Shown here one piece after another: positions 1 through 47,722 of a stretch of 52,948 bases of DNA. Under the pieces are notes generated by a model, which ran no database searches, was not told the origin of the DNA, and saw nothing but the letters and a program-made list of their open reading frames with translations. The position numbers and the translations under genes were made by a program. Origin of the DNA: a virus; IMG/VR virus record IMGVR_UViG_3300030451_004849, positions 1 to 52,948 of that record; one strand, written 5' to 3'. The first letter of the stretch is position 1; each line of letters begins with the position of its first letter.

Positions 1-21
1 CACTAAAAGTGGCAGGGACCA
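1..21. repeat. Left copy of 21-base terminal overlap
   Basis: Bases 1-21 equal 52928-52948 except base 18 (a here, g at 52945). Since one coding frame passes through the overlap in phase, this most likely marks closure of a circular or circularly permuted assembly and not a biological terminal repeat. Confidence 0.8.
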
Positions 22-3000
22 ACCGCAACCCTGGCGGAGTAACCATTTGGAGCGGAGCTAAAGCGGTTGGCCACTGACCAAAAAAGGCCCTATCTCGTTC
101 TTTTTCATCACCAAAGATCCAGTCGGCTGTGTCCTGGAACCAGTTCCATGGGGCAGGCATTGCACTTTCAAATAATGAGTATGCGAACACATTCCCAAGT
201 CCGAAAACGAACATGTCGGTAAGATATTGCCTTTTAAATTTTTCAAATTCAGGAGTACCTCTCCTAAATCCTAACATTTTTGCTTGTCTATAAGCATCAT
301 TTCTAAATCTAACAGAGTTCCAAGCCCAAGTTTGGAATCTTGTCATAACTTTACCTAATGCTGTAGTAGAAAAAGCTGGTCTATATGGAGCAGAATATAA
401 GAATTGTGTAGCTTGAACACCCTTTTTAGCCATTTCTATTAACAATGGATGATCTAACGGCATATTTGAATGTCCATATAGTTCTCTAGCTTGTAAATAA
501 TGAGCTGCAAAAGAATCTCTTCTTAACATTCTTTCAGGCTCTCTCATAAACCATGCTGCTTTTTGGAAAGCAGACTCTGTAATCTTATGTTTTTTAGCTA
601 TACTAATTAACGTTTCGTCTTTTACATTAGGATCTTTCTCTAAAACTTTTTTAGCATCATTTAAAAAATGCTTCCATTTAGCAGATTTAAAACTTGGATT
701 TAAGCCTGCTTCATACAATATGAAATCTGGAACTACGCCATGCCCGATGACCCATTTATCAATATCTTCCTTCGACTTCCACTTACCAGCATCGCCACCG
801 ACATGAGTCCTAAAGTACTCAACACTTCGTCCATTACGCCAATTACGCCAACCTGATGATTGAATTGTATGAAGAGTACCACCAAAAATGTTTGCTGCAG
901 CGGACTTAGGGTGAGCAAGAAGAGTAGCCATTTCATATTTAGCTTCGAGATTAGACCAGTGTCGTATATCCATTTCATCTAAACCTCTCAATTCTTCAGG
1001 TAATCTTAAATCCTCTTTAAAACCTAAAGACTTTCTTATTTTATTTAATCTATTTTTAACATGATTATCAGCATACCAAGAATAAGGAGTGCCTTTTACT
1101 TTCATTAAATCTGCCTCTGGCCCGTCCATCCAATTTTCTGGAAGTTTAGAAGGGAACCCTAATGCTCTAGATATATAATCTTGAATATAATTTTTCCAAG
1201 CATGTACTTGACCTGGGTCTTTCCATTCTACAGAAACCTTTTCACTAAAATCTTGCAACATTTTTTTAGACATTATTTGTCCTATTTGTCTAAAGTATGT
1301 ATCAATCAAATTCTTTTGGTATATATCCCATGAACCAATATCTCTAGACCAGCCAGGTAGATCACTAGAACGCGACATCATATTAGGGGCTATAGGATTT
1401 TTTTCTAAATGAGAAAGATGCTCTCCTTTTCTTTTATCAGCAATCTCTCTTAAAGCTCCCATTTCTATAGTATCTTGTGTTATATCAGATATAATCCAAT
1501 CTCCAGTCATAGACTTGTATTGACCCATAAGCTTTTTAATTTCATTCTTCTGCCAATCAGGACCTTTACCTGTTTGACTTTTAATTTTATCTATAGCTTT
1601 TTCAATAGCAGCCTTAGCGACAGCTTTATTGTGAATAAATTGAGGGTGATAATCATTAGGTTTATAATAATTAGTTAAGTCTAACTTTTGATTTTGAAGA
1701 CTCAATATCATGCTATCATACAACTCTATTGATGCTTTATCAGTAACAAGACTTCTTTCGCTCATTAACCTATCCAACATAATAGATCGAGATATTTTTC
1801 TTAAATTATCAAGACCTAAATTCATCTTCATAGGTTCACCACTTTTTAATATATTCATTAAATATCTGGTAAATTTAGGAGCGTCTATTTTAGGTATTGA
1901 AGTATTGTTAGCCCAATACTGATTTTTACCCTTTTTGTCTTTTAATATAAATTGCTCAATAGGATCTTCAACTTTACTGTTTCTAATATAAGTTTGACTT
2001 TTAGTATCAAACATATAATGGCTGCCTCTAATCCACTTAAAAGTTTCTATAGCCCTATTTGTTAGTACATTGTTAATATCATTTGCAATTTCTCTACCTG
2101 TTTTCTTGAATGAACCGCCTGGTCTACTAACATTAAAAACTTTCTTTTCATTTTCAGCCCAATTTGCTAATTCTTTCGCTTCTTTAAGAGATGCTTCATA
2201 CTCTGCTTTCTTTGTATGATATTCTGCACTACTCATTGAACGTCTTTTACCTTTAAAAGCCCTTAAAGCACGCTCTGCAGACACTATTTCTGCAAAATGA
2301 TACCCAAGTCCATCTTCAACAGATTCATAGCCTGTTTTATCCCTTAATTCAGTTTCAAGTTTTATTTTTTCATCTTGATCCATTTTAACAGCTAAAGCCT
2401 CTGTTCTACCTAACACATATTGAATGTTTTCTATAGTATGAGTAGGAACACCTTGAGTTCCTCCAACCCATTCACCTTTAAAGTTTTGGAATCTACCTTG
2501 TTGTTCAAATATAGTAAAATCTTTAACCATCATCTCTTTAGATACTGCTCTAGGGAATAACATCCAATGTCTTTGAGACAATTTAACTATTCCATCTGCA
2601 GTCAACTTACCTGGTTTTACAAAAATACTACCTGTACGCATTTCTCTAAAGAAATTATTCATAACTCTGAAATCATCAACTGTAAATGCATCAAAGTTTT
2701 TCTGTCTTAAACCTCTAGCAATAAGGTTTAAATTATCTATAGAGCCTACGCTATTATGATAATGTTTAATGTGCCCTATTAATTCATCAACCATTTTACG
2801 TTCAGCGTCAGTTAATTTAAATGGACCTGCTTTTTTAGCTCTTTCTCTAATATCCATTACGCCCTGTAAATCATTTTCCATAGGGTCTTGAGGAGCAATT
2901 TCTTTTAATTCTCCTTTAGTTTCCATATCTGCAGTAGTTTTTGATTCTTTTAAAGGTTCTGATACATAATTAAACTCTTCTGCATATTGTTTAAAGAAAT

Positions 3001-6000
3001 CTCTAATAGCACCATCATTAACATACTTACTTGAAAGACCCGTTTTATTAAAATATGTACCTGATCCGCCCAACTGAATTTCTTTAATTAAAGGTGCAAC
3101 TAATTGTCTAACATCATTATTAAGTTTTTTATAAGCTGCTAGTTTTGTTAAATCTGGACCTTTATAATATGAAGAAAGCATCATAGTATCAAATAGGTAG
3201 GACTCTTCTTTTGTTAAAACACCTTCTCCGCCTTGTTTCTTTTTCCAAGCATTATTTAATTTAAACCCTCTAATTCTTGTATCTATTTTCTCTTGTAAGG
3301 CAAAAGTTTTTAACTCAGGATCTACCTCAAATAGTGTTTTGAGATAGTATTTACCTTTATCATCAAGCATAACAACTTCTTCCTGGTCTACAATAGAACG
3401 TTCAGCAGCTTTTAATTTTTGAGCTCTTTCTATTTGTTTAGTATGATTAACAAAATTAGCCATATTATTTATAAACTCATCAGAAACACCCTTTTCTCTA
3501 GCATCTTTAATTGCTCTTAATAATTGTATTGCAGAGGTTCTGTCCATTGCATCATTTTGAGCAAATTCAGTTCCTTGTCTATATAGTCTATCAATAGCTC
3601 TAAATCTATAAGATTCTGAGTCTGAAATAGCTTGTGCTAAATCTTCTACACTTTTATATTTATTAGCATGTTCCCATGGAAATGATTTTTCTAAAAACTT
3701 TTTATCTTTCCATTGACCAGGTAAGTCTTCAAACAATTCTTTGTATAAATTAGGATTTTTAGCAAGTTCTGCTCTTACCTTAGGTAAGTATAGCTGTTTA
3801 CCAATAACTCTGTAAATGATAGGATTATCGACCGATTTAAAGCTTTCTCTACCTAATAGTCCTCCTGGCTTATTATATCCATCATTAATACCCTTTAATT
3901 CTAATGCTAGGTTGCTATTAAAATCTTCATACCTAGCTTCTAAAGTTTCAGGGTTAACTCTTCTTATTATATCATCAGTATAATCTAAAGGTTCTAATAT
4001 TTCAACCATTTTAGGCAACATAGTACCTCTTTGTGCCTCATTTAATTTATGTATACCTTGAGACATGTCATATACTTCATGAGCATAAAACCTTCTACCT
4101 TGGTCCCAATTTCTACTAAAGTATGCCTTATTAAAATCTGCAAATATTTTATAAGTTCCTTTTCTTGCATGAAAATGAGGAACAAATTTTGCTTGAACAT
4201 CTTTAGGAGCATTGTTCCAATCTATTTTGAATAATGAATGCCATCCTGTATTAAAATAATGATCAGCACCAGTTAATCCAACTTCATCTAATGGGTCAGA
4301 ACCGAAACCTATTTGAGCTCTTGATAATTCTCTAGAATAAGCAAGTTCAGCCTCAGTAACTCTAGGCTCTATATAAATAGTGTAAGCTTTTTTCTCACCT
4401 CTTGGAGAAAAATTAATAGCTTCTCTGTAGTCAGCTTTCCAACCTTTTCTTTTAGACTCTGGTAAAGCTTCATAGTCTTCAGTGGTTATTATATTACCTT
4501 TTTTATTAACAAATCTTTGAATACTATTTTTTAATAATGCATCATAAGTAGAATTTAATACTTGCTTTTGAACAACTGCTGGACCTAATTGATCTCTACC
4601 TGTAGAAGCATCTGCAGCTATATCCATTCTAGATTGAGGTGTATATTTACCAACAATAGATTTTTTTAATTCTAATGCTTTAGCATCACCATCATTTGTA
4701 GTCGTTAATAAATCTTGATAAGTTACCTTACCTTGCTTTATTTTAGCTAAAACAGCAGCATCATGAGCATTATTTGGATCTAAAGTAGACTTTAATACTT
4801 TTAAACCTTCTTTTGATATTTCAGCCGTTTTATTATCTTTGATAATTTTTGATTTAGGGTCTCTATACTCATACTTATTATCATGATACATTTTCCTATG
4901 AGCCTTATCAAGCCCAAATAAAACAAAAGCTTTATCTCCATCTAAATCTGCTCCACCTAATGCTCTCATTGTCCTAGGGTGAAATACTGCACCGTGTCCT
5001 TTAATACCTGTAAAACCTGCAAAAGTAAGTTCATGTGCCCCAGATATAGAGTCCATTGGAACCCTTAATGAGATTGTTTTAAAAAATTCTTTAACTTTAG
5101 GTTGATGCCCATACTTACTCCAAAGCTCTCCCAAAGTCATTCTTTGTTTACTTGATGTTATTATATTACTTACATCCCAGGAGACGTCTTTATAGTAATC
5201 ATCAAGGAAAAATAATTGGTCTGGATTTTCAACACCATATCTTTCTTTTAATATTTTTCTGTTAGCAGGGGCTCCTTTTCCAGAGGTGTTAAAATTTAGT
5301 TCAGGAAACTTTTTAACTAACCACGGATCATAACCTCTCATTCTAACTGATATAGAAGTGTCCCATTTCGGTCTAACGACTTTATTTACCACAAAGTTTC
5401 TCATTGAAGATTGTAAATAATTACGAACATCTTTATGTAGAAAAATAGCTAAATCAGGATAAATTTCCATAAGTCTATTTATATTAGAGGTAAATGTTTT
5501 AGCCTCTGCTACGGCATCTAAATATTCTGCTCTTGATATTTCACCAGAAGAATAATCTTGAGTTAATCTATCTACATTAGACCTTAATATTTTTTGATAT
5601 ATTCTAGCTACAAACTGAGGGTGATTTTCACTTTTAATAGCATCTATAGTCTCTGATAAACCTAATTTATCGATGTTATCTAAAATCTCATCTTGTTCAA
5701 ATCTTGTAAGTTCTTTTTGTTTCAATGCTTGATTTAATCTTGCATTCCAAGACTCTTCTCCAATATATCTATCACCAATAATCTCATTAAAGAACTTATT
5801 AATTTGTTCTTGAGGAATAGACTTAAAGGCATGTTCATGTAAGTTAGCCATTAACTGTTTAGGTATTAATTGAGGTTTAAGCATATGATCTGATTGCTTT
5901 TCAGATAATGAACCCCTAATATCAGATAGATTCATTTTATATGTTTCTCCCCCTGTATAATCAACAGAAAGGTCATCATTTACTTTTAATTCACCTATCT

Positions 6001-9000
6001 TCCTAGAACCATATTCCTTAGCAGCAGATTCAGGCATTAAAAATTGAATACCTTCTTTTCTCATATATTCAGATGCTTCTGGAGTTGCTTTATGAAACAT
6101 AAACTTACCTAACATAGCACCATGAGTTGGGTCACTACCAACAATAAAAGACTTATTTTGTCCAGACTCAGGCATTCCAAATGTTTTATTTAAAGCATCA
6201 ACAAACGTAGCCTCTGCAAGTATTGAACCATCTGTAGATTCAGTATATAGCACAGCTTTATCATCAGATGTTAAATTCTTATTATCAGCCTCTTTAAATA
6301 GTCTAAAACTAACCTGACCATTTGCCATAGACTTATCACCACCCATTTCCTGATATATTTTATTAAAGTATTTTGCATCAGCCTGAAAGCCGTCAGTCAT
6401 CCATATTTGATTACGCTTATTAAAACCTTTAGCATCTTTTATAGAAGAATTATCTCTAATCCAATGAATAAAATTTCTATCTGAACCATCTTTATTCTTA
6501 CCATAACTAGATTTCTTTAACCCATAAAGTTCTTTATCCCACATTAAATTAGAAAGAAAAGATCTATCAAAATATTCACTAGCCTCTTTTCTATTAAAAG
6601 CAGCCTTATTTCTATTTATAAATTTATTCTTTAGTTTATTGTAATGTTTTACTGCGTCTGGGGTAGTCTCTTTAAACACCTTTAATACACCATCAACCTC
6701 TGGCTTTAATTTTTTTACATTAACAACATCAGGGTGATACTTAAAGAAATACATTTTACCCGAATCGCCCTTACCACCATTATAGTAGTATCCTAATTCA
6801 TGAGCTTGCTTTAAAGATTGGGCTAGTAACTTATTAGCTGCACTCTGTGCTCTTTTAGCGCTCTTTCCACCCCAACCAGTAAAGTTCCCTTTTTTATTTA
6901 AATCTTTTAAAGGTATTTCTACTAACTTATTTCCTCTTTGAGTAACAGCATGATCAAGAACCATATATGCTCTATCTGGAGCGTCCTTACCTGTAGCTTT
7001 TCTATATATATTTTCATAAGCAAACTCAATTGCTTTAACAGAATCACCAGTCGACTTTAAGTTCCCAGCTAAATTCTCAGCTTGAGCACCTTCTAACACC
7101 ATTAATGATGTTCTGTTATCAACATTAGGGAAAAATTGAAGAGAAAAATGAGGAGTAGGTCTTTGCTCTACTTTTCTAATTAACATTTGTCTTAATTCAC
7201 CCTCTGCTATATTATCAAAGGCTGGTTGTTCTGGAAATGCTTTTTGTATGTCACCCAAAAATTTATCAAACTTGTCTAAAGACTTATGTTTTTCTAATAT
7301 ATCATAAATCTTTTTCTCTGCTTCAACTTTTTTAACACCCATTGCTTCAGAATCTAAACCATCTAAAACTTTAGGTAAATATTTGCTAACAAAAAATCTT
7401 GCTTTTTTCCTTATAATAACATCTGGAGCATCTCCAATATCAAAGTCTTCAACTTTATCTAATTCTTTTTGAGAGTCTATACGTCCATCTTTTTCTAATT
7501 GTTCCCTAGCTTTTTCTCTACCAGTTATAACATCACCGATTCTTTTCTGTAAATAATTAAGAGTATCGGGTGCATTATTTTTAAGCGCATTAAATATAGT
7601 CTCTGGAATAACTACCTTTTTACCTTCTGGTATTTGGTCTAAAGCCTCTTTAATTCTTTTTCTGTTTAAAGGAAGAGTTTCATCAGTCATTCCCTTTAAC
7701 GGCAACTCTATAACATTTTTATTAATTTCTTTTACATTGCCTTCTTTATTCAACTCTCCTGATGTAAGGAACACTTTTTCTTGATTTGCTTCAATATATT
7801 CAGGTGTAACTTGTTTTTCTACTTCAACTTTAGTCTCATATTTTTTAGCAGCCTCATTTATTTTAGCTTCTCTTACTGAATTACTAACCATTTCAGAAGT
7901 TATATCTACATCTATAGCATCCTTAATACCATCTATAGTTTCTCCTGCCATAACTGCTTGAGAACCAAATGTACCATGTCTCATAGCTATATTACTTATA
8001 ACTGATTCTTGTATATCTTTTGGTAGATCATCAAACCCTTTAACAAGTCTAGGGTCATAAACTTGCATATCCCATTGGAAAGGATTACCATTTTCATCTA
8101 ATCTTTTTAACTCTTTAGCAGTTGTTTTAGCTTGTTGTTCAACTTTTTCAGTGAACCTCATCGCTCTCATTTGACCTGCAGTGGTTTCATGAGCACCAAA
8201 ATATGCACCTAATAGGTACGAGTAGATTTGTTCTGGAGTTGTTTCTCCTCGCATTGACGATTGGAGCCCCTCATATAACGAAGACGCTGCTGCACGTATG
8301 AGCCTATCTTCGTTCTGAGTAGCTGTGTAAACCATTTTCCCTGTTTCCTGATCAAGCTTTGGTATACCTCCTTTATTAACTAGATTTGCTATACCTCTAA
8401 AGGCACCACCAGTAAGACCACCATGTAAACCAGCTTTAAGCATTTCATTAACACCTAATTGCCATGCAGATATACTACTTGCAACACCTAAATTAAAAGC
8501 ACCTTCTGCGACGTGTTTCGCATTATCTGTTGTTAAAAACTTTGCAACATCAGAATAAGCACTATTTTTTACTTCAGCAGCTTTAGTTAATGTTTTAGAT
8601 ACAATAGGAGCAACTTTTTCTGTTGCCTTATTAGATAGCCATAGTGGAACAGAATTACCTTTTAGAGCCCTGGCAGCCTCTGCTAATCCTTTCATTCCTA
8701 ATACTTTAAAAGGAGCTGATGGTATATAGCCTACAAAACCACCTAATTGACCAATAGAACGCATTATACGTTCATATTCATTTTGAGAGGGTTCGCCTAC
8801 ATTAAACGTAGAAAAGCCTGAAAGAAAACCTTCTCCCATGCCTTTAATACCTCTTAATAAATCAAACTCTGAATCTCTGGGACTTCCTTTTGGAGGTTCA
8901 GGTATATCCATTTTATAATGAACGGCATGATTTTTTAATTGAGATACTAACTCAGGTTTAAAAACCCAAGGTTTCTGTTTGTAAGCATCTAATAATCGAG

Positions 9001-38715: not shown

Positions 38716-39123
38716 ATGAGAGTTCAAACAGACAAAACTAAACTGCACACTAAATGTGTAGAGTATGAAGATAATAGTAAATGCATTACAAAAATAAGAC
38801 AATATTTAATCATAAATAAAGGTAAAGCAGTAGGAATAGCTGCAAATCAACTATTTATGAACAATAGAGTCTTTGGTATATGGTATAACAATAAAATAAT
38901 GATTTTTGAAAATCCAGAGATAATAGCATACAGCGGTGATGACTTACAAGACAGCACTGAAGGATGTATGTCTATTAAAAATGGAAAGAAACCATACCAT
39001 TTAAAAAGACCAAGACAAGTAGTGATAAAGAATGGTAAAGAAGAATACACATTCAATGATTACTACGCAACAGTAATATGTCATGAAATGGATCATTTAA
39101 ATGGTAAACTTATAAGCGATTAG
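38716..39123 (+). CDS. def: Peptide deformylase
   Basis: 135 residues; AGGAGG upstream. All three family motifs are present: GIAANQ (40-45), EGCMS (82-86, metal ligand C84) and HEMDH (123-127, ligands H123 and H127, catalytic E124). It removes the formyl group from nascent proteins. Shorter than bacterial enzymes (~170) because it lacks a C-terminal helix, as in other phage deformylases such as those of marine phages. It is the first enzyme gene of the early operon. Confidence 0.92.
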   Translation: MRVQTDKTKLHTKCVEYEDNSKCITKIRQYLIINKGKAVGIAANQLFMNNRVFGIWYNNKIMIFENPEIIAYSGDDLQDSTEGCMSIKNGKKPYHLKRPRQVVIKNGKEEYTFNDYYATVICHEMDHLNGKLISD

Positions 39124-40237: not shown

Positions 40238-40440
40238 TGGCTCAAGGAGACAGTATATTCTATAGAATGAAGAATGTTAAGCTAATACCTGACAATTATG
40301 GACTTACTATAGAAATTAAAATGTTAAGTGCTCATAAAGGTGATGGAACTTTTGTGAAAAACTTAAAACTAGATGAAGATGCTCTAAAAATAATAAAAGA
40401 GGGTATTATAGTCTACAATGAAAGGAGTGATCATGCCTAA
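40237..40440 (+). CDS. Small early protein, unknown
   Basis: 67 residues, mixed beta/helix (IFYRMKNVKLIPDNYGLTIE; LDEDALKIIKEGIIVYNE). It overlaps the next gene start by 8 bases. No family seen. Confidence 0.55.
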   Translation: MAQGDSIFYRMKNVKLIPDNYGLTIEIKMLSAHKGDGTFVKNLKLDEDALKIIKEGIIVYNERSDHA

Positions 40441-41140
40441 TTGGTGTTATAACGATTTAGAAGTATGGAGTGACGGTAGCACAGAATCTCAAAAAGAAAT
40501 GAGAGATTTTAAAAAGTCATCCATAATAGAGGAAAAAGTAGTAGAAGAAGATGGCAATATTAGAAATAGAACTAAATTTACGTTTGAAGGTGCTGAACCA
40601 ATGCCATCAACTTTAAGAATTACATCTGGTGGCACAGTAGATGAAGCAATAACCTATTTAAAAGCTAAAGATAAAGATTACAAGCAATTAGATGAATACT
40701 TTGATTATAAATGGGTTAAAGAAGATATTATTAACGAAAAGGATAGTGTTAAACAAAAAAGAGCAAAATTAATGGCTTATTTTGAAAACAAACTTGAAGT
40801 AAATGATGTCGAAGAAGGAAGATTAGCGATAGAGAACCTTGAAAAGTATGGTTCTAAAGATTGGTACGACTGGTCAATTCGTACCTGGGGAACTAAGTGG
40901 GACGCTGGATACACAACACATGAAGATGATGACGAAGATATGTGTAGGTATTCATTTGAAACAGCTTGGTCACCTCCAATGGGATGGTTGCAATCAGCGA
41001 CTACCAAATGGCCAAATCTCTTATTTAAAATGAGAGTAAGTGAAGAATCGGAAGCCTTTATGGGCATGCCAGTAGCACAGGGTGGTGAAGTGGTAGACAA
41101 TATTGTAGATATAAGATACCCTGAACCAATGAACAGTTAA
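40433..41140 (+). CDS. Api92-like ferredoxin-fold protein
   Basis: 235 residues from ATG 40433 (AAGGAG upstream). Begins MPNWCYNDLEVW, holds a central acidic helical part, then GTKWDAG, FETAWSPPMGWLQ and LFKMRVSEESEAFMGMPVAQ. This is the pattern of the Api92-like/DUF1281 family (MPNWCxNxL...NWGTKWD...TAWSPP...YxExGxxFxG), found in phages and mobile elements with unknown function. It lies directly before the ubiquitin-like gene, so a link to that cassette is possible. The insertion of ~70 acidic residues is longer than usual. Confidence 0.75.
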   Translation: MPNWCYNDLEVWSDGSTESQKEMRDFKKSSIIEEKVVEEDGNIRNRTKFTFEGAEPMPSTLRITSGGTVDEAITYLKAKDKDYKQLDEYFDYKWVKEDIINEKDSVKQKRAKLMAYFENKLEVNDVEEGRLAIENLEKYGSKDWYDWSIRTWGTKWDAGYTTHEDDDEDMCRYSFETAWSPPMGWLQSATTKWPNLLFKMRVSEESEAFMGMPVAQGGEVVDNIVDIRYPEPMNS

Positions 41141-41162: not shown

Positions 41163-41402
41163 ATGCCAGCTAATAACACAGTAAACGTAGAAGTATCATC
41201 TTACACAAGAGGCGGTACATTTGAATCAGGTTCATTTTCAACATTAGGCGATCTATTAAGAGAGTACAATGTAGAAATGTCTGACGCAGTAGTAGAAGTA
41301 ACAGGTGAAGACGGCGAAGAAAGAAGAGTAACAGCCGCTGGAAGGTTACAAGAAGGCGATACTATTGTAATCATGAAAGCTAAGAATAAATCAGGTAAGT
41401 AA
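41163..41402 (+). CDS. Ubiquitin-like beta-grasp protein
   Basis: 79 residues; AAAGGAGG upstream. Predicted strand order fits a beta-grasp: NTVNVEVSSY, then STLGDLLREYN helix, DAVVEVTGED, RRVTAAGRLQEGDTIVIMKA. The LxEGDTIVIM strand is the signature end of ThiS/MoaD/ubiquitin-like proteins. The C-terminus is NKSGK, so Gly78 would become terminal if one Lys were removed, for instance by the JAMM peptidase encoded two genes on. Followed by RNA element D and then E2-like, JAMM and E1-like genes, which form a complete conjugation set. Sequence alone does not prove conjugation. Confidence 0.75.
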   Translation: MPANNTVNVEVSSYTRGGTFESGSFSTLGDLLREYNVEMSDAVVEVTGEDGEERRVTAAGRLQEGDTIVIMKAKNKSGK

Positions 41403-41426
41403 TTTGATTTAGGTCGGCTTTAATTA

Positions 41427-41529
41427 ATATTGTGAGAGAGTTACGGCTAAAACCACCATCCGTTAGATATAAGCCTTACCAAACTAGTCATACGTGGCGG
41501 ACTAGCAAGCGTGGTCTCTCTCATAATAT
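41427..41529 (+). promoter_or_regulatory. Intercistronic RNA element D
   Basis: 14-pair closing stem atattgtgagagag/ctctctcataatat (41427-40/41516-29, one G-U). Inside are acgg/ccgt (41443-46/41460-63) and a perfect ctagtc/gactag hairpin (41484-89/41500-505). accac (41452-56) could pair with gtggt (41511-15) beside the stem, as a possible pseudoknot. The right arm ends 5 bases before AAGGAGG of the E2-like gene. Confidence 0.8.
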
Positions 41530-41545
41530 AAAACAAGGAGGTATT

Positions 41546-42976
41546 ATGCAATTAATGAAAGAAATGCTCGAATTTTGGCTAGAATCAACAGCCAATTTAG
41601 AAGAGTTACCAATACCTTTAGAGCAACAAGCCAAAAAGATAAGCATAAAATATGAAGTAAAGAAAGTAGAGCTAGAAATGCCAAAGTTCAATCCACAAAC
41701 AGAAGAAACTAATATGGAATTGACAGATTGCTATCTAGTAAACTTTAAAGATATTATATGCAAATATCGTCCTCATTTACATTTAGGGGATTATTGGTTA
41801 AATGTTCAATTCGCAAATGGTCAACCGCAATATATGTTTTATTATCCATTAACAATAGATGGTGTAGTAAAATGGCAACATGCAGACCATCCTCATTTAA
41901 GTGGAGGTAAGCCGTGTTTTGGTAGTCATCAAGGAGATATTGCAGATGCTATAACATCAGGTAATTATATGAGATTCTTTTCTCAAATAAAAGCATACTT
42001 GAGTAGTTATTATGGTAGAAGCACATATATAAGAGGAACAGCATACAAAAAAAGAAAAATATGTTATAGTCTTTATTCAAGACAAGAAATATTTGATATG
42101 TTTGCTCCCGAAGTTGATGAACCAGGTGATATGGATATACAAGGTTTAGCAAAAGATCCAATGCGTTGGAACTGGCCTAAAGATATTCCAGCTTGGGGTA
42201 CTATCGAAGTACAAGGTCAAGAACTAAGACAATTTTATAGAATGCTAAAAGTATCAGCAGACTATAGATTGAGCGGTCTTGACATAGAGTTTCCATTTAT
42301 AAGCGAACAAAGCACTTGGGAAGATAATTTAATGACATATGCTTATAATGATAGAAATCCATTGGCAGAGGCCATGAATAAAATATTGGGATATATCTAT
42401 CTAGCTAAAATATATGGCGAAATGAGTCTTCTAGAGGCAACTGAATTTGTTAGAATATTTTTAATTAAACTATATCTTGATTACACAGGAGCATTAGATA
42501 GTGAAATGATGAAAAGTTTAAAAGAAATGTCTGATAAATTAAACGCTTGCGAATATCAGAACAAATGGAATCTAAATAGAAGGTATACAGTAGTATTAGA
42601 CTCTAAACGAAGAGAAGATACTAGCAAACTAAGAAAGGATCTACGTAAGATAATAGGTGACGGAGGAACATCAGCTAAATTTATTAAAGAGCTGAAGTTT
42701 GCTGGACACAAATTATCTAATTTTATGATTCTACTTAGAAAAGGTAAACCAGAAAATGCAACTGCAACAGGATATTTGTGGAATGCAAACTCTGAAGATA
42801 TAGACTTTATAAATTATCGTAAAAGATATAGAGCTATAGAGAGATTTGTATATACACAAGCAATGCAGCAGTTAGAAAAAGACAAAAGGAGGTTCGTAAA
42901 TGAGCTCAACAAGTCCGACATTATACATCTCGAAACAGATGATGGACAAGCTACATTATTTTCTCAAGACCTTTAA
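41546..42976 (+). CDS. E2-like ubiquitin-conjugating protein with C-terminal extension
   Basis: 476 residues from ATG 41546 (AAGGAGG upstream; the earlier ATG at 41432 lies inside RNA element D and has no site). Residues ~60-160 show the UBC pattern: YYPLTIDGVVKW, then HPHLSGGKPCFG with H115/H117 and candidate catalytic C124, then a helix to LSSYY. This resembles prokaryotic E2 families with HPHxxxxGxxCxG. Residues ~160-476 are a helical extension of unknown role, ending QATLFSQDL; QATLF fits a sliding-clamp binding motif. The JAMM gene starts within its last 77 bases. Would accept the activated ubiquitin-like protein from the E1-like enzyme. Confidence 0.75.
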   Translation: MQLMKEMLEFWLESTANLEELPIPLEQQAKKISIKYEVKKVELEMPKFNPQTEETNMELTDCYLVNFKDIICKYRPHLHLGDYWLNVQFANGQPQYMFYYPLTIDGVVKWQHADHPHLSGGKPCFGSHQGDIADAITSGNYMRFFSQIKAYLSSYYGRSTYIRGTAYKKRKICYSLYSRQEIFDMFAPEVDEPGDMDIQGLAKDPMRWNWPKDIPAWGTIEVQGQELRQFYRMLKVSADYRLSGLDIEFPFISEQSTWEDNLMTYAYNDRNPLAEAMNKILGYIYLAKIYGEMSLLEATEFVRIFLIKLYLDYTGALDSEMMKSLKEMSDKLNACEYQNKWNLNRRYTVVLDSKRREDTSKLRKDLRKIIGDGGTSAKFIKELKFAGHKLSNFMILLRKGKPENATATGYLWNANSEDIDFINYRKRYRAIERFVYTQAMQQLEKDKRRFVNELNKSDIIHLETDDGQATLFSQDL

Positions 42977-43739
42977 GAATCTTGAATGGTCTGGCCCTGC
43001 TTGGTATTCTCATGAAAAAGATGAGAACGGGTTTCCAGAGAAAATAAGACTTGAGTACTGGTATCCTCTTGATTTAGGTACTAGTGGTAATACAGATTGG
43101 GATGGCAAAGACCTAATCAAATTGTATCCAAAATTAAGAAAAGAGTTTCCAGAAATAGGAAAATCTTGGGTACAAGGTAATGTTCATTCACATCATAGTA
43201 TGGGTGCATTCTTTTCAGGTACTGATGAACAACAATTAATAGATGGAGCAAATGAAAATTTTTATTATTCATTAGTTGTATCTACTAAACCTGGAAAAGA
43301 ATTGTTCTTTGGTGTTAGTTATCCTGATCAATTTGGACAAATACATATTGTTGAAATAGATAATATTGAAACAGAAAGTGTTGCAGAAGTATTGCCTGAA
43401 TGGAAAAAGGAAGCTAAATGGATAAAGAAAAACAAAAAGCCAGAAACGACTACTCTTTTCAAATATAATAATAGAGGGACTAATCATCAGGCTACTTTAT
43501 TCGGAGACATCAAGGGCGAAGCCCAAAAACACGACGAAGCCATAGACATCAACGACAGGTATGATGAATATCTTGACTTTAATTCTTACAACGCAATAGG
43601 ATCAGAAATGGACTTTGACGTATTCCAAGAATATGACAAGATAATGCTTGACTTTGACAGAGGCAGAATAAACAAGAAAAAGCTTAATCAAAAGCTTAAA
43701 AAACTAGGAGTAGACGAATATGGCAGACAGGTATCTTAG
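42900..43739 (+). CDS. JAMM (MPN+) metallopeptidase
   Basis: 279 residues; AGGAGG lies inside the E2-like gene and ends 7 bases before ATG 42900. Zinc set HSHHSMGAFFSGTD: H96, H98, S106 and D109 match H-x-H-x7-S-x2-D, with E29 (NLEWSG) as the catalytic Glu. JAMM enzymes remove ubiquitin-like proteins from targets or trim their tails. Residues 185-279 are a flexible, acidic/charged extension carrying QATLF at 197-201. This extension is absent from single-domain JAMM proteins. Its end overlaps the E1-like gene by 20 bases, so stoichiometric co-translation is likely. Confidence 0.88.
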   Translation: MSSTSPTLYISKQMMDKLHYFLKTFKNLEWSGPAWYSHEKDENGFPEKIRLEYWYPLDLGTSGNTDWDGKDLIKLYPKLRKEFPEIGKSWVQGNVHSHHSMGAFFSGTDEQQLIDGANENFYYSLVVSTKPGKELFFGVSYPDQFGQIHIVEIDNIETESVAEVLPEWKKEAKWIKKNKKPETTTLFKYNNRGTNHQATLFGDIKGEAQKHDEAIDINDRYDEYLDFNSYNAIGSEMDFDVFQEYDKIMLDFDRGRINKKKLNQKLKKLGVDEYGRQVS

Positions 43740-44382
43740 AAACAAAGACCTTATCGACCAATCTAAATTGGACAAGATAACGGTTATAGGTGCTGGCGGA
43801 ATAGGTTCGGCATTACTTCAAAACGCTGCAATAATGGGATTTAAGGAAATAACAATTTGGGACCCTGACAGGTTAGAGGAACACAATCTATCCACAACCT
43901 CATGGCCAGAGTGTTACTTAAATTGCACTAAACTTCAAGCAGCAGAAGAAACATTACATCAGTTAAATAAAAGTTGTAATGTTAAAGCAAGACCTCATTT
44001 TTGGGAAAGTGGAATGCCATTGGAAAACAAAGTATTTCTAACACCAGACAATATGGAAGTTAGACTTGCAGTATATGAACAATGGAAAGAAAACCCAAAT
44101 AGAGAGTTCTTAATAGATATGAGGATGGGAGCATTGGGTTATGAAATAATAACTGTTACCCGTGAGTACGATTATTTCATGGACTCATATGTTCCTAGCT
44201 CAGAAATAGCTGACGATCCATGTACAGCTAAACATACAATCTTTTGTGGTTCATTAGCAGCATCATTTGGACTATCACAAGCATTTAATGTCTTGCAAAA
44301 TAGATTGTATTATGCGTACATTTGGGGGTCGTTAGGTCCTGTTAGTTTAAGACGAGAACACCTCGTTAAACCTCAACAGTAA
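43720..44382 (+). CDS. E1/ThiF-like adenylating enzyme
   Basis: 220 residues. VIGAGGIGS (22-30) is the nucleotide-binding loop, DPDRLEEHNLS (48-58) gives the Asp and Asn that follow, K71 the lysine, LIDMRMG with D133 the metal site. Cys residues at 65, 69, 168 and 176 are candidates for the thioester Cys. The Arg of the usual NLxRQ is Ser/Thr here (NLSTTS), which differs from ThiF/MoeB. Shorter than ThiF (~250) and lacking the CxxC zinc pairs. It would activate the 79-residue ubiquitin-like protein. Last gene of the cassette, followed by RNA element E. Confidence 0.82.
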   Translation: MADRYLRNKDLIDQSKLDKITVIGAGGIGSALLQNAAIMGFKEITIWDPDRLEEHNLSTTSWPECYLNCTKLQAAEETLHQLNKSCNVKARPHFWESGMPLENKVFLTPDNMEVRLAVYEQWKENPNREFLIDMRMGALGYEIITVTREYDYFMDSYVPSSEIADDPCTAKHTIFCGSLAASFGLSQAFNVLQNRLYYAYIWGSLGPVSLRREHLVKPQQ

Positions 44383-44383
44383 A

Positions 44384-44466
44384 TTAATATTTAGGCAATA
44401 GGGATAGGGGACTGTCCAGTGGATGGTGCATAGTCATAAAATCAAACCACACTATTGCCTAATTAA
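44384..44466 (+). promoter_or_regulatory. Intercistronic RNA element E
   Basis: Closing stem ttaat + taggcaatag (44384-88, 44392-401) with ctattgccta + attaa (44452-61, 44462-66): 15 pairs with a 3-base bulge on the left arm, the same layout as element A. It begins 2 bases after the E1 stop. The interior 50 bases include actg/cagt and gtgg/ccac. Confidence 0.8.
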
Positions 44467-44485
44467 CCCTAAAAAAAGGAGTAAC

Positions 44486-45349
44486 ATGTTACAAGTTAAC
44501 AAAGTAGAAACCAACTGGAAAGATGAATTACCTGGTGGAATTACTTGGTATTTCATTGGCCAACCAAAAAGTGGCAAAACTACACAAGCTTCTAAATGGA
44601 GTAAAGGTGGATCTGATTCGTGTCTAGTAATAGATACAGATTTAGGTGCAGACTTCGTTGACAAAGCAAATGTAGTGACCTGTTGTTCATTAAATCCTCC
44701 GATTAGAGTTAAAGAAAAAGACGGCGTAAAGGTTGTTAAAAATGGACAAGAAGTTGTAGAAGTAATACCTCCTGAAGAGAGAGGTTTTTATTATAGAGCT
44801 GGTTCAAATAGAGGCAAACCAATGGCCGCCTATTCTTTAGCAGAAATCATACAAGATTTAATGAAGAATTGGCATGATTATCCGTATGATACGGTAGTAA
44901 TCGACACCATAGACCAAGTTAATATCTGGATAGAAGACGTTGTTAAAAACGACTTAGGTATCGAGAATATGGGCGACGGTTCATGGGGTAGTGATTGGGC
45001 AGCTGCAAAGAAAAAGAATGCTGATATAGTTAAAAAGTTACAAGACTTTATGAAAAAAGTTGGTGGCAATTTAGTTATATGTAGTCATTCGAAATCTACT
45101 GCAGTAACTGATGATAAAGTTCAGTTAGCTCCTAATCTACCAAGTGGTTTAGGCAGAATATTATGTGCTAAAGCTGATGTTATAGGATATACAACTATTA
45201 ACAAAGACGATGGCTCATACTGCATAAGCTTCGAAGGTTACGACGAAAGAATGGTAGGCTCAAGGCTTAAACCATTAGCACAAAAGCTATTACCATTTGA
45301 CTATAACGAAATACTAAACGAAATCAATTCCTATAAGGAGGATAAATAA
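44486..45349 (+). CDS. Sak4-like RecA-fold ATPase (AAA_24)
   Basis: 287 residues from ATG 44486 (AAGGAG upstream; a longer frame from 44423 runs back into RNA element E). Walker A GQPKSGKT (25-32), Walker B TVVIDTIDQV, then LVICSHSKS (sensor-like) and VQLAPNLPSGLGR. The pattern matches phage Sak4/AAA_24 proteins, single-strand annealing recombinases that act with an SSB-like partner, here the next gene (4-base start overlap). Ends in a basic/acidic helix. Likely role: recombination-dependent replication and repair. Confidence 0.82.
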   Translation: MLQVNKVETNWKDELPGGITWYFIGQPKSGKTTQASKWSKGGSDSCLVIDTDLGADFVDKANVVTCCSLNPPIRVKEKDGVKVVKNGQEVVEVIPPEERGFYYRAGSNRGKPMAAYSLAEIIQDLMKNWHDYPYDTVVIDTIDQVNIWIEDVVKNDLGIENMGDGSWGSDWAAAKKKNADIVKKLQDFMKKVGGNLVICSHSKSTAVTDDKVQLAPNLPSGLGRILCAKADVIGYTTINKDDGSYCISFEGYDERMVGSRLKPLAQKLLPFDYNEILNEINSYKEDK

Positions 45350-45951
45350 TGGCAATAATGAGGTCAGAAGTAAAGTCAGGCGGCGGAGACTGGCTTGGTA
45401 TCAAGACAGGTTCTTTAACAAAAGTAACTGATGAATCGCACAAATATGATTGGGCGGACGTATATTTGTTAGTTGAGTTTATGGTTGAAGGATCTGAATA
45501 TCCGAGAGTTATGAAAGTTACAGGGTCATGGGAAAAGAATCCAGATGGAACTATCCAGGATTGTCCATTACTTAAAAGAGTAACTTTCTTATTTGATGCA
45601 TTAGGTGACATGGGTGGTGTAAACCAACATGGCGAATGGTGTGATTCAAATGAGCAAAAGATCGATGACATATGTGATTATCTGATGGCTAATTACAAAG
45701 ACAGCAGATGCACTATATATGTTTATAGAGAACTTGCTAAGAATGGAAATGCTTATACCAGAGTTCACAATAAAATTCTTAAGGCTGGAAACGGCAGTGA
45801 GAAAGAGCTTGAAAGCTATATCAATTTTATGAAAACTAAAGGTTACTTGAAAGAGGCACCTGCAGATCATCAAAATGGTACTGCTGCTACACAAACAAAT
45901 GTAGGTTCTCAAGCGATGAACACGGACGGTATAGACATTGCAAACCTATAA
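45349..45951 (+). CDS. SSB-like protein, partner of the Sak4-like ATPase
   Basis: 200 residues. Beta-rich N-terminal ~110 residues (VYLLVEFMVEGSEYPRVMKV) fit an OB-type fold; C-terminal part is helical then disordered (HQNGTAATQTNVGSQA), ending acidic DGIDIANL, like SSB tails that recruit other proteins. The place next to Sak4 is the usual place of phage SSB-like genes. Fold is inferred, since no typical SSB motif is certain. TGA/ATG-type coupling at the start. Confidence 0.6.
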   Translation: MAIMRSEVKSGGGDWLGIKTGSLTKVTDESHKYDWADVYLLVEFMVEGSEYPRVMKVTGSWEKNPDGTIQDCPLLKRVTFLFDALGDMGGVNQHGEWCDSNEQKIDDICDYLMANYKDSRCTIYVYRELAKNGNAYTRVHNKILKAGNGSEKELESYINFMKTKGYLKEAPADHQNGTAATQTNVGSQAMNTDGIDIANL

Positions 45952-47722
45952 TTATATAGAGATTGCAAAAGAGACCCCTCGGAAACGGGGGGTTCTCATT
46001 CCTAAAGATGAGCTCAAAGGACACTTCAGCAATAATACTGCTTTGTATCGTTCTATGTATCTTTATAGCTTTGACGCCGTTGATTTCGCAGATTCTAATA
46101 ATAATAGCTTACGTAATTATTATGGTGTGCGAGATATTGACAACATTCTTATAGATATAGACAAAGAACAGAATACCGATGAATATACTTTAAGAAAATG
46201 TCAAGGAATATTATATGCATTAACAGAAGAACTCGATTTACAAACAAGTAATTTTAGAGTTTATTTCTCTGGTAGCGGTTATCATATAATCATACCAAAT
46301 ACTGTATTTAATTTTCCAGCTAGCGATTCATTACCTTTTCATGTAAAAGAAACAATGACAAAGTTATTACCCGATATAGACCCTATGGTTTATATAAGGA
46401 CTGGACTGTATAGAGTAGCCCATACAATAAATCCAAAGACGAATTTATATAAAATTCCTCTAACATATAACGAGGCTATGACTCTATCAACAGAAGAGAT
46501 ACATAAACTAGCAAAAACACCACGGTTCGAGTTTCCATATGAAGTATTAATTGGGGACGGAGAACTTGAGGAACATATTATTACAAAGGTTGAAATGACA
46601 AGACCTATGGGGAAAGTAATGGAACCAAAAAAAGTCGCTACATGTGTACAAACAATGTATAATGTAGGACCACAAGAAGGGTCACGACACAAAACCTTAT
46701 TAAGAATAGTTTCTCACTTTAGGAGACATGGACTTCCATCAACTGCAGCGAAAGCAGCACTAAAAGAATGGAACAATGGAAGTCTTAACGAACTAGAAGT
46801 CGCAGATCAGGTCGAATATGCTTATAATAAAGGGTATAAGTTTGGATGCAATGATGAGCTAATGAGCGCAAATTGTAGTCCTAAATGTATTTATTATAAA
46901 AGAAAAGACTATCTAGTAGATGTTATGGGACCTAAAGAAATGCAAGACGACTTAGCTGCAAGATTAACCACGGATTTTACTGGTAGATCTTATAATCTAG
47001 GTGCTTCATTAGGAGTAGACAGAGATTGTCAATTTTATCCTGGCGATTTAGTGACTATATTTGGACCAACTGGTAGTAGTAAAACTACACTTGCTCATAA
47101 TATAGCATTAGGTTACGATTTTGCCAATGATGCGATAAATCCACAATTTCAAATCCCAACATTATATCTATCTTTAGAGCTAGCTGCATGGTATATGCAT
47201 AGAAGAAGTTTACAAATAGTAAGCGGACTAGATAAAGATAGAGTGACTAACGATTATGCTAATATATATAATCAAAATTCAGATAAACTTGCACATATTA
47301 ACGTACAAACTGTTTCACCTACACTGGAACAAATACAGGCAAAAATAACTGAATTACAGCCATCTATGGTTATTGTAGATTATATCGACTTAGTTACTAC
47401 GCCTCCACATATAAGAGGAGAGTATGAACAAGTTAAATATATATCACACGGGCTATCAAATATGGCTGTAAATAATGATATTATAATAGTACAAGTTAGT
47501 CAAGTTAGTAGGGATTATAGTAGGAATGAAGTATTAGACCTATATGCAGGTAAGGGTAGTGGTGCAATAGAAAATGCATCAAGAAAGGTTATCGGTCTTA
47601 ACGGACAAGCCAATTCTGGCTTAAAAGATGTTAAGTTATTTAAAAATACTGATGGAGAACTATTTGAAACACAACTTGAATGGAGTCCATCATTTAGACT
47701 ACGGAGGACAAATGGCTACTAA
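45938..47722 (+). CDS. AEP primase / DnaB-type helicase fusion
   Basis: 594 residues, TTG start at 45938 (the next in-frame Met is residue 40, inside the primase region). N-terminal AEP-type primase: ILIDIDKE with D73 and D75, FSGSGYHIIIP (S113, H116) and YRVAHTINPKT. Middle: CNDELMSANCSPKC, a possible Cys metal site. C-terminal RecA-fold helicase: Walker A GPTGSSKT (376-383), LSLELAAWYMHRR, Walker B MVIVDYIDLV, VQVSQVSRD (motif like DnaB H3/H4). It primes and unwinds at the fork. An AEP primase joined to DnaB helicase instead of the TOPRIM type of T7 gp4 is notable. Overlaps neighbours at both ends. Confidence 0.88.
   Translation: MQTYNYIEIAKETPRKRGVLIPKDELKGHFSNNTALYRSMYLYSFDAVDFADSNNNSLRNYYGVRDIDNILIDIDKEQNTDEYTLRKCQGILYALTEELDLQTSNFRVYFSGSGYHIIIPNTVFNFPASDSLPFHVKETMTKLLPDIDPMVYIRTGLYRVAHTINPKTNLYKIPLTYNEAMTLSTEEIHKLAKTPRFEFPYEVLIGDGELEEHIITKVEMTRPMGKVMEPKKVATCVQTMYNVGPQEGSRHKTLLRIVSHFRRHGLPSTAAKAALKEWNNGSLNELEVADQVEYAYNKGYKFGCNDELMSANCSPKCIYYKRKDYLVDVMGPKEMQDDLAARLTTDFTGRSYNLGASLGVDRDCQFYPGDLVTIFGPTGSSKTTLAHNIALGYDFANDAINPQFQIPTLYLSLELAAWYMHRRSLQIVSGLDKDRVTNDYANIYNQNSDKLAHINVQTVSPTLEQIQAKITELQPSMVIVDYIDLVTTPPHIRGEYEQVKYISHGLSNMAVNNDIIIVQVSQVSRDYSRNEVLDLYAGKGSGAIENASRKVIGLNGQANSGLKDVKLFKNTDGELFETQLEWSPSFRLRRTNGY

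Follow-up and report, generated by a model that had tools for sequence, protein, structure and literature searches.

A predicted ubiquitin-like conjugation cassette beside the replication genes of marine and crAss-like phages

The cassette and its predicted catalytic residues

The 52,948-nucleotide record IMGVR_UViG_3300030451_004849 (the whole of which we call the window), from a marine virus of bacteria, carries on its plus strand four genes in the order ubiquitin-like protein (Ubl), E2-like enzyme, JAMM metallopeptidase and E1-like enzyme (Table 1). The enzyme genes overlap, E2 and JAMM sharing 77 nt and JAMM and E1 sharing 20 nt. An initial annotation, made from the sequence alone, read these genes as an early operon of a phage that encodes a full conjugation set, and this central reading is well supported by our sequence analysis. 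The residues it singled out are in place, namely C124 of the E2-like protein when counted from the ATG at 41546, H96, H98, S106 and D109 of JAMM (joined by E29 and spaced as HxH-x7-S-x2-D), and the VIGAGGIGS and DPDRLEEHN stretches of the E1-like enzyme. We show that the catalytic residues of the cassette proteins are invariant across 43-66 relatives each. It is thus very probable, judging from these sequences, that a generic Ubl conjugation pathway is encoded here; conjugation as such is well supported, while its target is proposed from context.

Table 1 Positions of the cassette, its features and its conserved neighbours in the window.
Feature	Position	Strand	Evidence
Four-gene cassette (Ubl, E2-like, JAMM, E1-like)	41163-44382	+
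Ubl, 79-aa beta-grasp modifier precursor ending NKSG-K	41163..41402	+	AlphaFold2 (AF2), Foldseek, profile search
Invariant Ser77-Gly78, predicted mature C-terminus, then Lys79	41391..41396	+	SG in 60/60 family members
Long imperfect hairpin, Ubl-E2 gap	41427..41532	+	RNA fold -35.6 kcal/mol, z ~-2.2
E2-like conjugating enzyme, 476 aa, HPH115-117 and Cys124	41546..42976	+	Motif, profile, AF2, context
QATLF, E2 residues 468-472, disordered C-terminal tail	42947..42961	+	Sliding-clamp-binding-like; region pLDDT < 50
JAMM metallopeptidase, 279 aa, E29/H96/H98/S106/D109	42900..43739	+	Pfam Prok-JAB E = 7.5e-4, under the curated cut-off; invariant ligands
QATLF, JAMM residues 197-201, variable linker	43488..43502	+	Clamp-binding-like peptide
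E1-like activating enzyme, 220 aa	43720..44382	+	Pfam ThiF E = 9.8e-17
Sak4-like ATPase (replication/recombination), conserved neighbour	44423..45349	+	PHROG_124 E = 5e-25; 53/65 loci
SSB-like protein (function inferred), conserved neighbour	45349..45951	+	63/65 loci; no Pfam match
Primase-helicase, conserved neighbour	45938..47722	+	DnaB_C E = 4e-14, PHROG_19 2e-32; 63/65 loci

The AF2 model of the Ubl (predicted local distance difference test, pLDDT, 76.8) has the ubiquitin-like order beta-beta-alpha-beta-beta, and a Foldseek search of the PDB with this model returned mostly ubiquitin-like domains and SUMO (E ~1e-3 to 1e-2, none <0.001), in keeping with the beta-grasp fold that had been anticipated. 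When a profile of the family was run against the PDB, the top matches were SAMP2, a MoaD-like protein and ThiS (E 0.006-0.011), and the single sequence gave a weak match to ThiS only (E = 0.015). Ser77-Gly78 is invariant in 36/36 Ubls, in which otherwise only the start and two further positions are conserved, the latter nearly so. The larger set of 60 Ubls has SG throughout; typically one variable residue follows it, but some members have no further residue, others two to four, and a few a long extension; a row flagged as having no SG is a fragment ending KSGN. In a sister lineage (the GG clade, as opposed to the SG clade of the window) the Ubls end in KVGG, KTGG, KRGG or KGG (24/24). An SG followed by a short variable tail, with KxGG in the sister lineage, is the signature of a processed and conjugated ubiquitin-like protein. 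Profile comparison of the SG and GG Ubl families aligned their terminal glycine regions (probability 90%, E 1e-6). Two marine Ubls (L045 3371-3820 and L051 3111-3416) have long C-terminal extensions past the SG, like the precursors of crAss-type phages described below.

Long hairpins also occupy the gap between Ubl and E2 in most of the SG-clade loci that were folded (among them L005-L009 and L032), their z-scores being mostly weak in the relatives. Several of these loci, the divergent L032 included, hold an identical 21-nt core, CTACTAAGACATCTAGCGCAC, inside gap hairpins whose arms differ. A 16-nt part of this core was found in 29 viral stretches, and the core does not occur in the window, where the gap spans 41403-41545. 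Rfam and tRNA scans gave no match, and the gap hairpin has no Rfam match either. It is possible that the hairpin regulates the ratio of Ubl to enzymes.

For the E2-like protein, the best start is the ATG at 41546, which is preceded by AAGGAGGT, and not the GTG at 41432 where the open reading frame (ORF) opens. H115, P116, H117 and C124 are invariant among its relatives, and its AF2 model (pLDDT 82.5) runs through helices, a four-strand meander, the HPH..C segment, further helices and, towards the C-terminus, a helical domain followed by a disordered tail, a secondary-structure order consistent with an E2. No meaningful match was found in Pfam, NCBIfam, PADLOC or PHROGs, Pfam detected no UBC fold in 27 family members, and a BFVD search with the model returned one close relative only. 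In a comparison with four E2 sequences, the family profile aligned HPHLSGGKPC onto HPNINSNGSIC with a score of 24.9, the best of the column-permuted controls (n=150) reaching 24.2 and the next 17.5. In the GG clade, the ORF in the E2 position carries HP[YF] or FPY and then C[LFW][GSD], with the Cys invariant (25/25), and profile comparison of the SG and GG families aligned HPx..C (probability 96%, E 1e-9). From these sequences the E2 assignment is likely, not proven; it draws mostly on the HPx motif, on the invariant Cys and on the fact that Ubl, E1 and JAMM always accompany this protein. Many GG-clade E2-like proteins (L127-L189) additionally hold in their C-terminal half a Cys-rich stretch that resembles a metal-binding knuckle and may be a built-in element of E3-like type or one that binds nucleic acid.

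All JAMM ligands are invariant across relatives, and the enzyme is predicted to act in Ubl processing and deconjugation. In the E1-like enzyme, the ATP site (G24-S30, D48, D50, K71, D110, R115) and a predicted catalytic C168 in PCTAKHT show little or no variation across 20 diverse members, crAss included. A PDB sequence search listed UBA5, NEDD8-E1, SUMO-E1 and ThiF among its matches, and we take the PCTxK motif to resemble the catalytic cysteine motif of eukaryotic E1s.

Distribution and genomic setting

A single E1 query recovered 66 IMG/VR loci, and an E1 profile at least 301 IMG/VR contigs with a confirmed E1 relative. The order Ubl-E2-JAMM-E1 was present in 47 of the 49 loci with >3.3 kb upstream of E1 and in 47/47 of the marine ones, the two remaining loci being crAss-type records for which the profile was too narrow. 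E1, E2 and JAMM are separate ORFs in all 47. To avoid selecting for E1, a second sample was fetched via the primase-helicase; here JAMM and E1 occurred together in 29/29 loci with enough flank, and E1 in 52/54 with >2.5 kb upstream. The E1 tree is deep and phage-only, with the crAss-type lineage, the GG-type lineage and the window's clade standing apart; its deep branching order is unsure because of long branches, and six rows labelled GG within the SG clade are contigs without a detected E2, for which the label is uninformative. A pattern scan of one genome from each of 84,980 prokaryote species gave 45 pattern matches and no confirmed relative, although distant relatives could be missed because the scan was pattern-limited. 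Plasmid matches considered as relatives look like ordinary ThiF/MoeB-like proteins and were set aside. The cassette is no stray acquisition, and the expectation that a full set in a lytic genome would be unusual needs correction: the set is core and widespread among these marine phages and also among crAss-like ones; outside phages, our searches did not find it.

Among those phages, Flavobacterium phage FpV4, several genera of Steigviridae (Crassvirales; Kehishuvirus, Kolpuevirus, Wulfhauvirus DAC15, Mahlunavirus, Kahnovirus and Mahstovirus) and Dulem virus 41 carry E2, JAMM and E1 in the same order behind the primase. As in the marine phages, the full order is Ubl(+tail)-E2-JAMM-E1 and key residues are kept, the neighbours here being primase and uracil-DNA glycosylase. 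The E1 is ~21-27% identical and has the motif CSYKQT or CTMKQT, and the E2 reads HSH..C.G instead of HPH..C. A further difference lies in the Ubl, whose beta-grasp-like segment ends in SG (9/9) and usually runs on into a long tail. The Mahstovirus Ubl, by contrast, has only two residues past the SG and its tail is encoded as a separate gene, an arrangement that would be expected if cleavage removes the tail after SG. An HNH endonuclease gene lies between the two (L199 1417-2620). The cassette is not recognised in the annotation of Steigviridae and FpV4. One survey of crAss-like phages does not mention ubiquitin, ThiF or JAB, and our literature search, largely confined to papers outside subscription, found no description of a phage Ubl cassette or of crAss ubiquitin or ThiF; a prior description is possible. 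FpV4, DAC15 and Kehishuvirus are available as isolates with hosts, which makes the pathway directly testable.

The cassette sits upstream of the recombinase, single-stranded DNA-binding (SSB)-like and primase-helicase genes, in a strand block opposite to the structural genes, and an endonuclease VII gene is a further fixed neighbour (58/65 loci). The terminase and primase-helicase of the record have distant matches only. No polymerase of the A, B or III-alpha families and no beta-clamp was detected in the record, which fits the use of a host replisome. Directly upstream of the Ubl, an Api92/DUF1281-like protein (40418-41140) is found in four loci only and is therefore placed outside the conserved cassette. 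A phage peptide deformylase (38716-39123, Pfam E = 3.3e-18) has a counterpart in very few related loci. On the minus strand, positions 1-9000 hold a single open frame of ~9 kb running off the left end, a giant gene; what looked like a gene gap there is this one frame, and an altered genetic code was rejected as its explanation.

Clamp-binding-like peptides and the proposed role

Both the putative writer and the putative eraser carry QATLF, the window's E2 ending in QATLFSQDL and its JAMM linker reading HQATLFGD. The consensus of bacterial beta-clamp-binding peptides is QLxLF, usually C-terminal (PMC4549789), to which QATLF is a loose match, its position 2 not being Leu. Among representatives taken after clustering, Q..[LMI]F occurred within the last 25 residues of 20/54 E2s (shuffled mean 0.57, maximum 4 in 500 shuffles), and Q..[LMIF][FW] past residue 140 in 45/70 JAMMs (shuffled mean 4.6, maximum 11). 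Of 443 further ORFs in the same loci, each 100 aa or longer, only three had Q..[LM]F, none of them in the last 25 residues. GG-clade JAMMs often have QxxLW or QxxIW. There is also a six-residue clamp-binding form, QxxLxF, which is present in 5/9 crAss-type JAMMs (shuffled mean 0.2). A third such peptide, QKLLPF in the Sak4-like neighbour, was discounted, as relatives have N for Q in a conserved stretch. From these motifs, docking of the cassette enzymes on a clamp is a tentative proposal.

We propose, with a probability of roughly 0.6, that the cassette is a phage-owned, reversible Ubl conjugation pathway that works within the replication module, perhaps docked at the host clamp. In this scheme, JAMM would trim the Ubl precursor to expose Gly78; E1 would adenylate Gly78 with ATP and then hold the Ubl as a thioester on C168; and E2 would accept it on C124 and pass it to target lysines, from which JAMM could also remove it. 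Through the QxxLF-type peptides of the E2 C-terminus and the JAMM linker, both writer and eraser would attach to the beta sliding clamp of the host, which would make the clamp or clamp-bound proteins the most likely targets. Candidates might include the clamp itself, host polymerase III, repair factors, and the phage SSB-like, Sak4-like or helicase proteins. The scheme draws on intact catalytic residues, a conserved Ubl C-terminus, gene order, replication context and enriched peptides; from these we infer that a thioester relay leads to isopeptide bonds, that the enzymes dock on a clamp, which proteins are the targets and how the phage would benefit. That the cassette acts in replication is probable. 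A broader and rather doubtful extension is that several tailed-phage lineages, gut crAss-like phages included, run a Ubl cycle at the host clamp as a core part of genome replication.

Several observations weigh against this proposal. Foldseek of the E2 model against the PDB finds no E2, so that the UBC fold named in the initial annotation was not recovered in this way, and the profile match to eukaryotic E2s is weak (probability 19%, with a score that barely exceeds the highest among 150 permuted controls). GG-clade E2s and several SG-clade E2s lack the clamp motif, and a short Q..LF-type motif could bind another partner. The record, classed as linear, may be incomplete, in which case a polymerase could lie outside it, and a place in the replication module is by itself no proof that the target belongs to replication.

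The targets suggested initially were the replisome, host defences and virion parts, and genomic context together with the peptides on E2 and JAMM favours the replisome over the other two. Counter-defence genes are usually accessory and patchy. If the pathway instead tagged host defence or regulatory proteins, its replication neighbours would merely reflect early expression; the early operon position would suit such a role, and a counter-use is plausible given that the bacterial anti-phage systems Bil and CBASS themselves employ Ubl conjugation (PMC13373217; PMC10097602). We nevertheless regard this as unlikely, as the set is fixed beside replication genes (47/47 and 29/29 loci) across deep divergence, and clamp-like peptides occur on both writer and eraser. 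Conjugation of the Ubl to capsid or tail precursors, a mirror of the tail modification by Bil, would find a precedent in the lambdoid tail-assembly clusters, which already hold a Ubl and a JAB protein according to Iyer et al. 2006 (PMC1779556). However, the cassette lies in a strand block opposite to the structural genes and, in all lineages examined, next to replication genes, which makes virion tagging improbable.

Two further explanations were considered. The Ubl might act as a sulfur carrier like ThiS or MoaD, with E1 making a thiocarboxylate whose sulfur would be passed on to a nucleotide, a tRNA or a cofactor; its closest profile matches and the small, ThiF-like E1 point in this direction. 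No sulfurtransferase or cofactor enzyme is seen nearby, however, JAMM and an E2-like protein with invariant HPx..C are always present, and E1 has the PCTxK motif. We therefore judge a sulfur-carrier role, given the constancy of E2, to be very unlikely. Finally, the local similarity of E1 to PADLOC E1-E2 models might suggest a bacterial defence operon recently captured as cargo. Such a capture is largely refuted by the phage-only distribution, with three deep E1 lineages and no relative confirmed when 84,980 prokaryote genomes were scanned by pattern, and by the fixed synteny. The replication-linked conjugation pathway is thus the reading we prefer.

Comparison with known systems

Prokaryotic Ubl conjugation is known mainly from defence operons (Bil, CBASS, Bub) and from plasmid PRTRC cassettes of unknown function. 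Bil shares with the phage cassette the set of Ubl, E1, E2 and JAMM/deubiquitinase and the conjugation of the Ubl, yet serves bacterial anti-phage defence, whereas the phage set lies in a replication core. With no Bil model available for direct comparison, PADLOC gave no Bil-named match, and E1 matched generic E1-E2 models only. Type II CBASS (Cap2/Cap3) and Bub (BubCD) have a related E1 adenylation domain (Cap2 E ~1e-7, BubCD 3e-7, PDB search) and a peptidase partner; their enzymes are fused, multidomain E1-E2 or E1-JAB proteins, whereas the phage E1 and E2 are separate and accompanied by a dedicated small Ubl.

Iyer et al. 2006 (PMC1779556) describes bacterial operon types 6a-6e and lambdoid Ubl+JAB tail genes, and no complete phage set appears in the part of it that was consulted. 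Type 6d and PRTRC operons resemble the phage cassette in that Ubl, E2, JAB and E1 each have a gene of their own, the Ubl has a conserved C-terminal glycine and the setting is a mobile element. They are bacterial, PRTRC being largely on plasmids, and the type 6d E2 lacks the upstream His and has a conserved downstream one, in contrast to the invariant HPH upstream of Cys in the phage family (PMC1779556). The phage cassette also differs in its replication-gene neighbours. Membership of the PRTRC family, raised initially, fails the curated NCBIfam cut-offs (PRTRC_A 14.9 vs 101.8 bits, PRTRC_ThiF 16 vs 144.75 bits), and neither Ubl nor E2 matched any NCBIfam PRTRC model. The lambdoid TAPI/TAPK pair, likewise phage-encoded, combines a Ubl with a JAB peptidase but is described in the same source as having no E1 or E2 and a structural-gene context (PMC1779556).

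As a functional analogy, for which no homology is claimed, we suggest the ubiquitylation and SUMOylation of eukaryotic PCNA, where a Ubl writer and eraser act at a sliding clamp; the analogy is limited in that docking of the phage enzymes is predicted from short motifs alone, and these peptides do supply a specific target hypothesis. Conservation in hundreds of related viruses and in crAss-like phages suggests that phages use protein tagging in their own life cycle. If true, tagging would be a tool of viruses too, beyond the bacterial defences that phages face, and would explain crAss-like genes annotated as "thiamine biosynthesis" and "metalloprotease". Compared with Bil, CBASS, Bub and PRTRC, the kind of machine is known; what appears to be new, in the literature searched, is that viruses keep it as a conserved pathway linked to replication.

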